Shown piece by piece: positions 30,853-49,245 of a stretch of DNA of 64,000 nt. Location of the stretch: contig LVBB01000109.1 of assembly GCA_001603075.1 (NCBI GenBank), forward strand, positions 186,001 through 250,000, written 5' to 3'. Positions within the stretch are counted from its first letter, which is position 1, and every line of letters starts with the position of its first letter. The notes beneath the pieces were generated by a model, which saw only the letters and a program-made list of their open reading frames with translations, had not been told where the DNA came from and did not search any database. A program made the translations under genes and the position numbers. The DNA is from Phycisphaerales bacterium Planc_01. Its GTDB lineage: Bacteria; Planctomycetota; Phycisphaerae; Sedimentisphaerales; Anaerobacaceae.

Positions 30853-30880
30853 GCAGGGGCGAATGACCATTCGCCCCTGC
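30853..30880. repeat. 28-nt palindrome, GGGCGAAT family (intergenic copy 1)
   Basis: A perfect inverted repeat with 13-base arms (GCAGGGGCGAATG and its complement) around a 2-base centre. It lies 33 bases after the LamG stop codon. It belongs to a family with three other members in this window (39546, 41177, 47941). As RNA it forms a strong hairpin and could act with the next hairpin in termination. Confidence 0.85.
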
Positions 30881-39273: not shown

Positions 39274-40698
39274 TCACAGTCTCCACGGGCTGCGCGTCGC
39301 GCGGGCCAGCAAGCGCGTCGCCTCCGGGTCGCCGACGAACTCTTCCTTCGCGGGGTCCCATTTCAGCGAGCGTCCGAGCTTGTACGCGAGGATGGTCAGA
39401 TGTCCCAACGACGCGCCGCGATGGCCGATCTCCGGAGGGCAGTTCGGCTGGCGGCGTGTGCGAATGCAGTCGAACCAGTTGGCGTGATGATCGTTGTCGC
39501 CGATGTTCACCTCGCGCGTGGTCAGCTTCATGCGTTCGAAGAACTGTAGGGGCGAATCATCATTCGCCCGTACCGCGGGGCCGCCCTCGATTGGCCCGCC
39601 GGTGCTCATCGACGTGACCCAGCCTCGCTCGCCGACGAACACGCCGCCGAAATTCCCTTCCAGCCGGGCGTCTGCGGGCACGGCTTTGTACAGGTCCTTC
39701 ACCATGCCCCAGTGGTCCACCAGGTGCAGGAGCGTGCCGTTGGCGTAGCGGCAGGTGAGCGTCGGGTATTGGCCCGTGCTTGGGTGGATGAACTCGACCG
39801 GCCCGCTGTTCTCGGCGTCCAAGGCGTACTGAATCACGTCCGCGGCGTGCGAGTGGTACCACGTGACTGCGCCGGCGCCGAAGTCGTCATGGAACGCCCA
39901 AGGCACGACGCCGGGGATCGGATTCCTGTGGAAGGCGCTGTTGTACGGCTGCCAAGGGGCGGGACCGACCCACAGGTCCCAGTCCAGTCCCTCGGGCACC
40001 GGCTCGGCCGCCAACGCCGGGCTCACGGGGGCATACGAACGACCGAAGTTCTCGCCCAGGGGCTGCCAGAGTGTGAAGACCGACTTGACCTTGCCCAGCC
40101 CGCCGCTTCGCACGAACGCGCAGACCTGGCGAATCGTCGAAATGGAGCGATACTGCGTCCCGGTCTGGAAGATCCGGCTGTAGCGTTGCGCCGTCTGGAC
40201 CAATCGGCGGCCCTCGCGGACGGTCAGCGAGATCGGCTTTTCACAGTAGACGTCCTTGCCTGCCTCCATCGCGTGGATCGATTGCATCGCGTGCCAATGG
40301 TCCGGCGTGACGATGACGACGGCGTCGATGTCCGGACGGGCCAGCAGTTCGCGGTAGTCGTTGTAGCTGTCACAGCCACGATACGTGCCCGCAGGACGGC
40401 GAGCAGCATAGGCGGCCTCGACGCGCTGCTTGGCTTCGTCGCGGCGCACTTCGTCCACGTCACAGACGGCCAGCACCTGGATCTCCGAGTCGCCGGCGAG
40501 GCGATGCAGGTGGCCCCGACCCATGCACCCGTGCCCGATCAGGCCGACGTTGATCCGATCGCTCGGGGCGGCGTTGCCTTGCGCGCCCCAGACCGAGGAC
40601 GGGACGATCCACGGAACTGCGATCGCGCCGGAAACGGCTGCTGTTCCTTGGATGAACTGACGCCGTGAACATCGTCCGACATGTCTGTCTTGTGTCAT
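39274..40698 (-). CDS. Tat-exported Gfo/Idh/MocA oxidoreductase (copy 4), with palindrome insertion
   Basis: A 474-residue Gfo/Idh/MocA protein with twin-arginine signal CSRRQFIQGT, Rossmann segment INVGLIGHGCMGRGH and an intact VYCEKPISLT motif near residues 144-153. The tail has HHANWFDCIRTRRQPNCPPEIGHRG. Residues 377-384 (RANDDSPL) are encoded by a 28-nt palindrome of the GGGCGAAT family lying in the loop before FFERMKLTT. The gene follows the ThuA-like gene by 11 bases and is probably co-transcribed with it. The reading frame is intact, so the enzyme may tolerate the insert. Confidence 0.85.
   Translation of the reverse strand: MTQDRHVGRCSRRQFIQGTAAVSGAIAVPWIVPSSVWGAQGNAAPSDRINVGLIGHGCMGRGHLHRLAGDSEIQVLAVCDVDEVRRDEAKQRVEAAYAARRPAGTYRGCDSYNDYRELLARPDIDAVVIVTPDHWHAMQSIHAMEAGKDVYCEKPISLTVREGRRLVQTAQRYSRIFQTGTQYRSISTIRQVCAFVRSGGLGKVKSVFTLWQPLGENFGRSYAPVSPALAAEPVPEGLDWDLWVGPAPWQPYNSAFHRNPIPGVVPWAFHDDFGAGAVTWYHSHAADVIQYALDAENSGPVEFIHPSTGQYPTLTCRYANGTLLHLVDHWGMVKDLYKAVPADARLEGNFGGVFVGERGWVTSMSTGGPIEGGPAVRANDDSPLQFFERMKLTTREVNIGDNDHHANWFDCIRTRRQPNCPPEIGHRGASLGHLTILAYKLGRSLKWDPAKEEFVGDPEATRLLARATRSPWRL
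39546..39573. repeat. 28-nt palindrome, GGGCGAAT family (coding copy A)
   Basis: Arms GTAGGGGCGAAT and ATTCGCCCGTAC around CATC, 11 of 12 pairs matched. It lies inside the oxidoreductase gene and is read in frame on the minus strand as RANDDSPL. It shares family and reading frame with the copy at 41177. Confidence 0.85.
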
Positions 40699-40709
40699 AT
40701 GGCTATCCC

Positions 40710-42215
40710 TCAGGTCGGCTTGGTTACAGCCTGGTTGAAAGTCTCGATCGTCCGTTTCAATTCATCGTCGCCGGACTCGACGCAGAAGACCACGGGACCT
40801 TGCTCTTGCCGACGCGTCTCATCGAGAAGCAAATCGATACCTCTGGCGCGCGCGGCCTTGTCCAAGCTGACGATCTGGGGGAGTCTGCCTTCCGGTGCAA
40901 TCCTTGTCCCTGGTGCGACGACGGCCTCGATGCCCATCTTTCGGGCAAATTCGACGATTTTCAACTGGCCCGCGCTGTCGGAGGGCATCGCGTCCAGGTG
41001 ATAGGTGAGCAGACGGACGCTTGCGGCATCCAGCTTGAGTCGAATCCGCTCCATCTCCTCGGCGGTCAGTCGGTCGTGGAACTTCTTGGGGATATCTCGA
41101 CTGATCTTCTGTCGATTGCTGCCGCCGACATACAGCAGACCGTGTTCTGCCGCTTTATCGATCAGTTCGAAGAGATGTAGGGGCGAATCATCATTCGCCC
41201 GTTCTCTCGATGCCGGCGGCACCAGGGCCAAACGCCAGCCGAGTCGCTCCTGCGCGCGAACGGCCGGGGTGAGCTTGGCGCTGGGCGTCGTCGGGGCCGG
41301 CAGGTCGCCGAGGGCGAACTGGGTGGCCGCCAAATAGAACCGCAGCATCTTCGGATCCCAGAAGACCGAAGGATGGTGCGCGATGGTGCAGTAGAAAACC
41401 CGTCCGCGTCCGTACTGGCGAACCCAGGCCAGCGCGTAATCGTCGTCGGCCCGCACGACGGCTCCATAGGACGGCTGCTGTTGCATATCGGTCCTGGCGG
41501 TGTCGATGCTCATGAGCACGCGAACGCGGTGGCGCGAGTACGGCTCGTGCACGCGGAAGAACTCGTCGCGGTAGTCGAAGCCCTGCCCGCCGAAGACCTG
41601 GTTGACCGGGTGGGTCGGATCGTCCAGCTTGATGAAGACGTGCTCATTGTTGGCCTTGTGGTTGGCGCCGCGGGCGCCGAGCATGATGCCGAACTCGGGC
41701 CAGTCCTCGATCGCGCCGGGCCACTGGGTGAAGGCGACGGACGTGCCGTGAACGCCCATCAGTCCGCCGCCGCTGTAGACGAACTCGACCAGGCTCTGCC
41801 TCCGTGCGGGGTCCTCGAAGCAATTGCCCACCGTGTTGTTGAAGAACACCGCGTCGAATTGTCGCAGACTGGCCGGCTCGAATACGGCCGGGTCTTTGCT
41901 GACCACCGTCTCGAACGCGCCGGTCCTCTTGCCCATGAGTGTGAACGCGGTGTTTGCGGTGGGGATGGAGGCGTGGCCGCCATAGTTGACGTTGAGGTCG
42001 AAGATCAACAGCTTGCGAGGACGCAGCGGCCTGGCCGGCGCCTCGGCAGGGATCGCTCGCTCGATGCGCTGTCGATCGTCCATATCCCCTCCGGCCTGCG
42101 GCTGTGCCATGGCCCGCTCAAGCGCCGACGCAGCAAGCGCACCGGCCGTTGCCGCGGTTCCGCCGAGGAACGTTCGTCGAGACACAAGTCCCCTGGGCAT
42201 CGTCCCTTCTTTCAT
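40710..42215 (-). CDS. Tat-exported ThuA-like / TIM-barrel fusion, with palindrome insertion
   Basis: A 501-residue exported protein with twin-arginine signal VSRRTFLGGT. Residues ~55-295 are a ThuA-like (trehalose-utilisation, glutamine-amidotransferase-like) domain: FDAVFFNNTVGNCFEDP, YSGGGLMGVHGTSVAF, GRGRVFYCTIAHHPSVFWD. Residues ~320-500 resemble a shortened sugar-phosphate isomerase/epimerase barrel (LHLFELIDKAAEHGLLYVGG, KLDAASVRLLTYHLDAM). Residues 339-346 (RANDDSPL), at the junction between the two parts, come from a 28-nt palindrome. Start 42215 has GGGAG 7 bases upstream; 42200 is an alternative. It is followed after 11 bases by the MocA gene. Role in sugar catabolism is inferred. 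Confidence 0.75.
   Translation of the reverse strand: MKEGTMPRGLVSRRTFLGGTAATAGALAASALERAMAQPQAGGDMDDRQRIERAIPAEAPARPLRPRKLLIFDLNVNYGGHASIPTANTAFTLMGKRTGAFETVVSKDPAVFEPASLRQFDAVFFNNTVGNCFEDPARRQSLVEFVYSGGGLMGVHGTSVAFTQWPGAIEDWPEFGIMLGARGANHKANNEHVFIKLDDPTHPVNQVFGGQGFDYRDEFFRVHEPYSRHRVRVLMSIDTARTDMQQQPSYGAVVRADDDYALAWVRQYGRGRVFYCTIAHHPSVFWDPKMLRFYLAATQFALGDLPAPTTPSAKLTPAVRAQERLGWRLALVPPASRERANDDSPLHLFELIDKAAEHGLLYVGGSNRQKISRDIPKKFHDRLTAEEMERIRLKLDAASVRLLTYHLDAMPSDSAGQLKIVEFARKMGIEAVVAPGTRIAPEGRLPQIVSLDKAARARGIDLLLDETRRQEQGPVVFCVESGDDELKRTIETFNQAVTKPT
41177..41204. repeat. 28-nt palindrome, GGGCGAAT family (coding copy B)
   Basis: GTAGGGGCGAAT-CATC-ATTCGCCCGTTC, with the central 8-bp arms (GGGCGAAT / ATTCGCCC) perfect. 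It lies inside the ThuA-like gene and is read on the minus strand in the same frame as the copy at 39546, again as RANDDSPL, followed by a shared TCTTCGAA a few bases downstream. Confidence 0.85.
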
Positions 42216-42391
42216 TCTCTGTCTCCCATTGAAGTCCGCAGGACAAGAACCACCATCGACAGATCGAAACCTGCACCCAATGTAGCGGATGGAAGCCGGC
42301 GGAGCAACGGCATTGTCCGCATCGGTTTGCGAAGACCTGCACCGCACCCGTCCCTATACCCCCTGTGTGGAGAATGCGGTGGCCGGTGCCG

Positions 42392-47894: not shown

Positions 47895-47940
47895 TGCGAC
47901 TCCTTTCAGGCCGTTCGTAGTGTGCCCGTGAGGGCATATG

Positions 47941-47968
47941 GTAGGGGCGAATGATTATTCGCCCCTAC
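47941..47968. repeat. 28-nt palindrome, GGGCGAAT family (intergenic copy 2)
   Basis: A perfect 12-bp inverted repeat, GTAGGGGCGAAT-GATT-ATTCGCCCCTAC. It lies in the 88-base gap between the oxidoreductase gene ending at 47983 and the TolB-like start at 47894, so it falls in the leader or promoter region of the acetylation cassette. It could terminate upstream transcription or act as a hairpin in the leader. Confidence 0.85.
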
Positions 47969-47982
47969 TTGAAGGCGACATC

Positions 47983-49245
47983 TTACGACGCCACTACGAA
48001 CTGCGGGATCTTCAGCAGGGCGCCGCCCTGAAGAGCCGACTCATGCGCTACGATTCCGGGTACGGTATACGCCAGCGCCTCGTAGATGTCCACGGTCGGA
48101 CGGCGATTGTGCGTCAGGGCATCGATGAACTCATGGGTCAGGAACGTGTGCGAGCCGTGGTGGCCGCTGTCGTGGCGCAGCGGCTCCGGCAGCATGTCGG
48201 TCTTCCACCAGTCGGGCTGCTCGTAGCGTTCCAGTTCGGGCAGGTCGCGCACAAAGCCGGCGTCGTCCTTCTCCTTGCGTCCCTCGGCCGAACGCACGAT
48301 CACCGGCCCCAGCCCGTTGGGGTCGCCGCAATAGAAGCTCATCCTGTCGCCGATCCACTGGGCCCGCTCGGTGCCGCGATGGGCGCCCTTCCACCACACG
48401 TTGCAGCGGAAGGCGTGGCCGCGATCGGTCTTGAACATGGCCGATTCGTTCCAGAACGGGTTGCGGTATACGTTGTCCTTGCAGATCGGGTCGTCGTCGC
48501 CCCAGCCGTGGCAGACGACCTCGGTAAGCCGCTCGCCCGTGACACCGGTCACGAAGGCGGTGCAGTGCGTCGGATAGTGCATGGGCGCCAGGCCGTGCCG
48601 CCAGGTGCGCTTGCCGTTCTCGAAGTAAAGCACCTCCAGCCCGGCGTGCTGGTACTCGGCCTCATAGTACGTCACCGTGCCGAACTTGCCCTGCTGCTGG
48701 AACCGCCGCGCCGAGATCGTCGGTTGCTGGTAATAGCTGGTCTCGGCCATCATGTAAGTCAGGCCGTACTTCTTGACCGCGTCGAGCAGACGTTCGGCCT
48801 CCTCGACCCCGCCGCCCAGCGAGGCCGGCACCGCCGAGATCGCGTGTTTGCCGTGCTTCATCGCCTCGATCACGTGCTTGACGTGGTTCGGGCCTTCGGT
48901 GAACACGCCGACCGCGTCGATGTTCTTATCGAGCACCAGTTCTTCAAGCGAGTTGTACGACTTGCTGCATCGGTAGGTGCGCATCAGGCCCTCGCGGCGC
49001 TCCGGCCGCAGGTCGCTGACCGCCTCGACCACGCAGTCGGGATGCTCGTGCCACTGAAAGCTCGTGCCGAACCCGCCGCCGACCACGCCGATCCGCACCT
49101 TCCTCGGCGCCGCGTTCACCGCCAAGGTCGCATACAGTGGCAGTGCTGCACCTGCGACCATCGCACTGGTCTTGAGGAACTCCCGCCGCGAGCAGTCATG
49201 TGAAACGCGGGACTGCTCCGAGGTGGTCACATTTGTCGTACCCAT
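47983..49245 (-). CDS. Tat-exported Gfo/Idh/MocA-like protein lacking EKP (copy 6)
   Basis: A 420-residue Gfo/Idh/MocA-fold protein with twin-arginine signal CSRREFLKTS. The Rossmann segment is VRIGVVGGGFGTSFQWHEH. At the position of the EKP motif it reads AISAVPASLGGG, so the lysine central to hydride-transfer chemistry in the family is missing. The C-terminal domain keeps HTFLTHEFIDALTHNRRP. It may be a non-catalytic or mechanistically different member. Start 49245 is supported by AGGAG 8 bases upstream. It lies on the same strand upstream of the TolB-like/AlgI cassette. Confidence 0.8.
   Translation of the reverse strand: MGTTNVTTSEQSRVSHDCSRREFLKTSAMVAGAALPLYATLAVNAAPRKVRIGVVGGGFGTSFQWHEHPDCVVEAVSDLRPERREGLMRTYRCSKSYNSLEELVLDKNIDAVGVFTEGPNHVKHVIEAMKHGKHAISAVPASLGGGVEEAERLLDAVKKYGLTYMMAETSYYQQPTISARRFQQQGKFGTVTYYEAEYQHAGLEVLYFENGKRTWRHGLAPMHYPTHCTAFVTGVTGERLTEVVCHGWGDDDPICKDNVYRNPFWNESAMFKTDRGHAFRCNVWWKGAHRGTERAQWIGDRMSFYCGDPNGLGPVIVRSAEGRKEKDDAGFVRDLPELERYEQPDWWKTDMLPEPLRHDSGHHGSHTFLTHEFIDALTHNRRPTVDIYEALAYTVPGIVAHESALQGGALLKIPQFVVAS

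Follow-up and report, generated by a model that had tools for sequence, protein, structure and literature searches.

Two neighbouring genes for unrelated proteins, a Gfo/Idh/MocA-family oxidoreductase and a ThuA-like protein, carry the same short palindrome in a 64,000-nt stretch of the genome of Phycisphaerales bacterium Planc_01, and in both genes it reads RANDDSPL. How did one piece of DNA come to lie in two such genes, and what does it mean for their products? We consider it probable (roughly 0.85) that the element is a GTAG-tagged repetitive extragenic palindrome (REP), a hairpin that has been moved widely, and that the two inserts are tolerated survivors, most likely neutral for the proteins. 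In what follows, the window is the whole 64,000-nt stretch and the own genome is that of Planc_01; G001, G002 and so on are related genomes, a label such as C144:65302 gives contig and position, and L with a number denotes an examined locus. The relevant features of the window are:

39274..40698, minus strand: Gfo/Idh/MocA-family oxidoreductase gene, 474 aa (Pfam PF01408 and PF19051; Tat-signal match just below the cut-off)
39546..39573, minus strand: REP copy in the MocA gene, GTAGGGGCGAATCATCATTCGCCCGTAC, sense strand GTACGGGCGAATGATGATTCGCCCCTAC, reading RANDDSPL (residues 377-384) by sequence
40710..42215, minus strand: ThuA-like gene (Pfam PF06283), whose open reading frame (ORF) extends upstream as far as a GTG at 42347
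41177..41204, minus strand: REP copy in the ThuA-like gene, GTAGGGGCGAATCATCATTCGCCCGTTC, reading RANDDSPL by sequence
30853..30880, no strand given: intergenic REP copy, GCAG at both ends, DNA hairpin of -15.4 kcal/mol
47941..47968, no strand given: intergenic REP copy with a double foot, GTAG...CTAC, lying in the spacer of a further dispersed palindromic repeat

Two insertions in neighbouring genes

An initial annotation of the window had placed both palindromes inside the MocA and ThuA genes, each reading RANDDSPL, and had noted further intergenic copies at 30853 and 47941; all these positions were confirmed. Its numbering of the ThuA insert as residues 339-346 holds when counted from the ATG at 42215, the start that we prefer because most close relatives align only from residue ~36-56, while the same residues are 383-390 in the 545-aa ORF from the GTG. 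Its description of a 28-nt palindrome needs narrowing: perfect pairing is confined to a core of 8+4+8 nt, and pairing of the outer 4 nt is partial, amounting (as folded) to 3 bp in the MocA copy and none in the ThuA copy. The other end of the ThuA copy is degenerate, reading GAAC on the sense strand.

To follow the two sites across relatives, we fetched 62 ThuA relatives with their surroundings; 59 ThuA and 50 MocA homologues span the sites. At the MocA site, AN..SP was seen in 0/50 spanning relatives (46 at >=58% identity, 4 distant ones at 38-45%), and at the ThuA site in 1/59, the sister genome G002. The proposal that a mobile palindrome had been inserted in frame in unrelated proteins is borne out by this comparison, the eight residues being absent from 50/50 and 58/59 relatives. 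The nearest named ThuA relatives are Phycisphaerae metagenome-assembled genomes, including AS06rmzACSIP_359 (JAAYBV01).

The MocA alleles of G002, G005, G036 and G003 read GGPDDL.. where the own genome reads GGPAVRANDDSPLQF.., and the net gain over these four is +27 nt, which we read as 33 nt replacing 6. The ThuA site shows a net +21 nt against 6/7 relatives without the repeat and +9 nt against G021. Only the MocA case is tightly resolved (sisters at 91-92% identity), and loop lengths vary among the relatives anyway. Neither G002 nor any other relative seen has the MocA insertion, so the family was still moving after these lineages had parted.

In AlphaFold models built with 33 and 34 sequences, the MocA insert (377-384) is predicted in a coil running into a helix at 383-390, at a mean model pLDDT (predicted local distance difference test) of 73. 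The ThuA insert (383-390) is predicted in a loop flanked by a strand at 371-376 and a helix at 392-401, with pLDDT <50 at 383-386. The expectation that both inserts fall at loops is in keeping with these models. By sequence comparison and modelling, then, both window copies are real insertions located in predicted loops.

Seventeen intragenic sites, namely MocA, ThuA and 15 proteins picked by eye, were inspected against G001, G002, G003, G005 and G036. All 17 proteins are in one phase; 16 come from the 22 loosely intragenic copies described below, and C47:26759, near a C-terminus, was added. Copies C148:104691, C16:37335, C158:12066 and C47:19181, all in other phases, were left out, as were C16:371843 and C47:19138, which are in the main phase with upstream coding scores of zero or below. 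C143:11455 and C128:83501 were kept despite a negative upstream score, and relatives then supported both.

At 12/17 sites, the own genome is longer than relatives that lack the repeat by a net 12-27 nt, always a multiple of three, as it has to be with both alleles open. A clean 28-nt insertion would shift the reading frame; since the observed gain is smaller than the 28-nt element, 1-16 native bases were lost at those 12 sites. The remaining five sites, C144:65302 (treated below) among them, are uninformative or speak against a simple gain. C121:81144 and C158:52264 (self-complementary loop) were judged by protein alignments, not by nucleotide rows; here the repeat-free relative is distant, and the own genome is longer by 1 and 2 residues. 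The loops corresponding to C20:18042 are very different among the relatives, several of them holding other repeats, and at C47:26759 only two relatives align, neither clearly empty. Intergenic sites were also tried as a source of clean insertion chemistry and set aside, with few usable empty alleles at 14 sites and joints that differ.

A dispersed GTAG-tagged repeat and its coding phase

The core of the element, GGGCGAAT-N4-ATTCGCCC (also written GGGCGAATN4ATTCGCCC), has 65 exact sites, dispersed over many contigs, in the own genome (5.65 Mb, 162 contigs), against 0 sites genome-wide for a reversed-pattern control. Four exact cores lie in the window, at 30857, 39550, 41181 and 47945, and with <=3 mismatches there are 6 matches versus 0.69 expected, a number reached in 0/100 shuffles. 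The 65 aligned copies give the consensus G(T/C)AG-GGGCGAAT-N4-ATTCGCCC, with a loop that is mostly NATN and a partly conserved 4 nt at the end; conservation has sharp edges on both sides, with little conserved outside the element. A GTAG foot is evident, with G at -4 in 64/65 copies, T at -3 in 59/65 (C in 6), A at -2 in 63/65 and G at -1 in 65/65. The three G-C pairs at the stem base (GGG/CCC in 65/65 copies) are partly forced by the choice of search pattern. Both ends carry GTAG in 13 copies, while the other end is GTAC in 10; a double foot (GT[AG]G + C[TC]AC) is present in 15/65, comprising 13 GTAG/GTAG and 2 GTAG/GTGG copies, and the other end is partly conserved elsewhere. CATC/GATG is the commonest loop pair (25/65).

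Exact cores are present in the own genome and 6/60 relatives, with 111 in G002 and 88 in G029. Among 392 genomes sampled from the phylum, the tagged pattern was found in 8, the own genome included, the other 7 having <=2 matches per strand.

Such repeats have precedents. GTAG REPs are reported in the Planctomycetes-Verrucomicrobia-Chlamydiae superphylum, including O. terrae and R. baltica (Di Nocera et al. 2013, PMC3733652); the relevant passages of that paper also describe REPs inside ORFs in several species, many of them in DNA repair genes, with the most intragenic GTAG repeats in O. terrae. GTAG repeats in Planctomycetes and within genes are thus already in print there, which makes the novelty smaller than initially proposed. 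The shared traits in those passages are GTAG at one end, a short perfect stem, high copy number and a mostly intergenic location with some copies translated within ORFs, and the element studied here is likewise a palindrome of the 20-40 bp class with many dispersed, mainly intergenic copies. They differ in that no codon-phase or net-length rule appears in those passages. The string GGGGCGA does not occur in the text of PMC3733652, whose Figure 1 or additional files may list the stem.

Loose gene calling assigned 38 of the 65 copies to intergenic space and 22 to genes, with 5 overlapping. We rest the phase count on a strict test, which requires coding scores on both sides and is blind to phase, because the protein set above was picked by eye and is all in one phase. 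By this test, 12/65 copies in the own genome and 12/78 examined in G002 (of 111) are intragenic, and all 24 use one phase, xANxxSPx; with 5 sites common to both genomes, these represent 19 distinct sites. The same test is passed by 1497/2836 random positions of the fetched regions and by 805/1500 of the window (P ~5e-9). Copies in genes are therefore rarer than expected by a factor of about three.

When codon scores were applied to the 65 copies, both sides proved coding on the same strand in 11 in-frame cases and 2 out-of-phase ones, and we read the latter two as boundaries between neighbouring genes. One of the two, C6:204072, is a gene boundary at which the foot TAG ends the upstream gene, as it also does in three relatives; the other, C148:108437, is located between two called genes. 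No gene among the 65 copies was read as split out of frame. The genome-wide table of intragenic and intergenic copies and their phases, which the initial annotation had recommended, shows 65 copies with 12 strictly intragenic ones in a single phase, and neither an even use of frames nor many disrupted genes.

The shared reading had been presented as one frame out of six. Both window copies are indeed in the same phase, but since the element is palindromic, sense and antisense share their codon phase, which leaves three phases to choose from. In most copies, one or two of these are closed by stops inside the element: copies with GTAG facing 5' lose one phase to the foot TAG, and most loops contain a TGA or TAA that blocks another. 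Two genes agreeing on one phase is weak evidence alone, and it is the genome-wide tally that carries weight. Where two or three phases are open, every strict copy still uses the polar phase. Under random choice among the open phases, the probability of all copies falling in one phase is 0.01 for the own genome, 1/16 for the G002-only sites and ~6.5e-4 combined (a product by hand), values that are rough, as feet may have mutated after insertion. The unused phase would read G-R-(I/M)-x-I-R-P-Y.

A possible, if doubtful, extension of these observations is that REPs are coding-compatible by construction: stops and palindromy would leave one phase, so that survivors add a similar polar loop peptide, and the phase may have been selected via the REP carried in its own transposase gene. 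If the phase were selected to be open and harmless, REPs would be a source of ready-made loop insertions, repeatedly restocking the permissive loops of host enzymes.

A transposase gene with the same repeat

In a related genus, represented by G029, a gene for a REP-associated tyrosine transposase (RAYT) is accompanied by six REP copies: two lie upstream of it and one downstream, two are contained in it in frame, and one at its 3' end provides the stop codon. Such an association of REP and RAYT (a REPtron) was found in G029 and not in the own genome. The RAYT query matched 14/61 genomes, and its 24 matches reduce to 17 loci that were read, the other 7 being short fragments or further parts of genes already counted. 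A tagged hairpin lies inside the open stretch at 16/17 loci (in L366 and L368 only in an N-terminal extension), and at 12/17 the hairpins within and outside this stretch have a stem in common. GTA serves as a codon in each of the 10 forward-oriented hairpins. The variable segment of the proteins follows MPNHxH (alignment A3), and three of them match NF047646 REP_Tyr_transpos below its cut-off. REPs inside sister-family RAYTs encode VGAGPRACP, VGAAPCGRP, RARHASPLP, VGADLRVCP and similar peptides.

These features resemble subclass 2.4 of TnpA_REP, for which passages of Quentin et al. 2018 (PMC6006769) describe two REP types, canonical long and double-foot, as well as in-frame REPs inside the tnpA_REP gene, between its HuH and Y motifs. 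Likened by description, the two share three G-C pairs at the stem base, a GT[AG]G foot and in-frame REPs inside the RAYT gene, the last found at the RAYT loci read here; the double foot may be a further point in common, with C[TC]AC at the other end of part of the copies. They differ in that here the same REP family also lies inside many host proteins and that the own genome is without such a RAYT. Cleavage and strand transfer on single-stranded hairpins have been assayed for TnpA_REP, as passages of PMC8266576 report.

The element is probably a non-autonomous hairpin moved as single-stranded DNA by a RAYT resembling subclass 2.4 (TnpA_REP). It would have inserted widely, the intergenic insertions being tolerated. 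Copies in genes would have survived where three things came together: enough native bases were replaced to keep the frame; the codon phase was the one left stop-free by the element, which by palindromy is the same in both orientations and reads x-A-N-x-x-S-P-x; and the loop could accommodate a short peptide of polar and flexible character.

Earlier papers already report REPs lying in frame within host genes and within RAYT genes. In the literature searched, which left most subscription papers outside, we recognised no report on such insertions in Phycisphaerae or on phase or net-length rules.

Several smaller observations belong to these transposases and arrays. A PF01797 search for a REPtron gave 7 Y1_Tnp genes in the own genome, none with this REP close by; in 7 relatives, it missed the real REPtron gene, which was located instead via the copy cluster in G029. 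Another Y1_Tnp locus of G029 (L120) has a REP copy ~1.2 kb away, a distance that chance may account for on a rough count. The RAYT of G002:C77 is intact. G029 has at least 6 inverted copy pairs 60-61 bp apart, an arrangement like that of bacterial interspersed mosaic elements; one close inverted pair was seen in the own genome, C47:19138 and 19181, 43 bp apart.

Weighing the explanations

A number of observations weigh against a RAYT-mobilised REP held in genes only in a harmless phase. The loosely called intragenic copies are in the xANxxSPx phase in 18/22 cases, with 2 in each other phase; the four off-phase copies have zero or negative upstream coding scores and resemble over-long N-termini, and so do several of the 18. 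In G029, 0/22 examined copies passed the strict test, whose codon model was trained on the own genome. Only a single phase is open in 6/12 strict copies here and 4/12 in G002, so that the bias is partly forced. Among the RAYT hairpins in reverse orientation, CTA is a codon in 10/17 and not in 7, which puts 7/27 overall in other phases. A sister REP supplies a counter-example: in G003, a homologue of the C20 gene carries a copy with stem GGGCGACGC that reads GRRMRRPY in the other phase.

The transposase and the joints raise further difficulties. The own genome yielded no RAYT of the group, only one partial match (E 9.7e-4), which lies in a different kind of gene; for this reason its REP family looks orphaned. 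Its 7 Y1_Tnp genes have no copy with <3 mismatches within the 6.6-9.5 kb fetched around them, G004 has 4 Y1_Tnp matches yet no REP copy, and the RAYT gene of G029 contains one internal TAG. At C144:65302, the loop of relatives lacking the repeat is 3 residues longer, a net change of -9 nt here. At the joints there is neither a duplicated target nor a single fixed position, and no insertion event was observed.

Might template switching or conversion at a shared flank, TTCGAAGA, have produced the MocA copy from the ThuA copy, which is 1.6 kb away? The two copies have the same loop and 8 flanking bases in common, and the ThuA insert is the older, as it is shared with G002. Most of that flank is, however, already present in the empty alleles, the MocA copy has a GTAC end, as do 10/65 copies, where the ThuA copy has GAAC, and the loop pair they share, CATC/GATG, is the commonest anyway. 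We regard this origin as unlikely. The same flank was also tried as an insertion target and rejected: it mostly pre-exists in the empty MocA and ThuA alleles, and little is conserved outside the element.

Alternatively, the xANxxSPx insert could be an exapted linker, serving the host protein for instance as a spacer or helix cap and maintained by protein-level selection. Some inserts are common to diverged species; in a MTHFR/pterin-binding protein (C80:104961), AGANHHSPVK here corresponds to VGANHDSPVK in G001 and VGTNHDSPIK in G003, the last showing that decayed copies can keep the peptide. Moreover, stems are better conserved than loops or flanks in shared copies (228/240, 50/60 and 2115/2430, a hand sum over 15/19 rows, 4 rows of C121:81144 and C158:52264 having been dropped for a wrong-strand flank). 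This measure is biased, as the own-genome copies were chosen as perfect, and maintenance at the DNA level would explain the pattern equally well; as a sign of function, stem conservation was set aside as suggestive at most. Furthermore, for many sites the inserts are missing in near relatives, or other repeats stand in their place, and the MocA insert is found in the own genome only. Exaptation thus appears improbable.

The resemblance to Rickettsia palindromic elements (RPEs), raised in the initial annotation, is one of behaviour: in both, short palindromes lie in frame in unrelated proteins at tolerant places. RPEs, known here via passages of PMC3733652, carry a CGTC terminal tag where this element has GTAG, occur in other bacteria and have no RAYT link in those passages, whereas a RAYT with the same REP exists in the related genus; that the element is an RPE relative proper is very improbable. 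Finally, ancestral residues whose palindrome arose from codon choice or chance, an idea with nothing but the short length to commend it, are already refuted by the relatives (residues in 0/50 and 1/59) and the 65 genome-wide copies.

Under the preferred explanation, a widely moved REP with tolerated survivors in genes, the locus is a well-resolved case of tiny mobile elements entering conserved proteins, with empty and filled alleles, native bases lost, 19/19 strict sites in one phase and loops that hold different REP families from one sister species to another. At the MTHFR/pterin-binding loop, the G005 protein (L172, G005:C5) holds a GTAGGGGCAACC-type REP plus further repeat sequence, and the G005 homologues of C121:81144 and C158:52264 have related long hairpin pairs at the same loops. 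Such insertions can explain recurring short peptides in uncultured Planctomycetota proteins that would otherwise be mistaken for conserved motifs, and they provide a natural survey of protein loops tolerant of insertion.

Individual host genes add detail. The MTHFR/pterin-binding gene (L029; Pfam MTHFR, DUF5981 and Pterin_bind) has two in-frame REP copies at different loops, C80:103767 and C80:104961, and the G036 protein (L174, G036:C110) has at the same loop an in-frame stretch 27 residues longer, HHRGTEVTE...SRGSLCLCGE. The C20 gene has a weak terminase match just below the Pfam cut-off; homologues of C20:18042 (L162, L163, L166) contain in-frame repeats at the REP loop, ..SSTINHQSA in G005, ..SSIINHQS in G002 and a similar stretch in G036. 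The copy at C148:178128 (L050) stands just behind an apparent signal peptide, judged by eye, of a GH5-type protein; modified forms occur in G005, G002 and G003, and it is absent in G001. An AddB-like helicase-nuclease gene, C121:81144 (L033), also carries a REP, a single case that recalls the DNA-repair-gene bias reported in passages of PMC3733652.

The intergenic copy at 47941 sits within a host repeat spanning 47903-48007 of the window, GTTCGTAGTG ... CACTACGAAC, with a TGCCC-GTNA-GGGCA hairpin inside. This host repeat is matched by 19/20 stretches from G001, G002 and G005 (one by its left arm only); none of the 19, which were preselected as contiguous matches, holds a nested REP in the aligned part. 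At intergenic C16:446753 (L069), compared with L325 of G002, one species has this REP and the other a different hairpin. Likewise, C122:46991 (L036) and L329 of G001 have differing hairpins, the stem differing by the paired changes GAAT/ATTC versus GAGT/ACTC.

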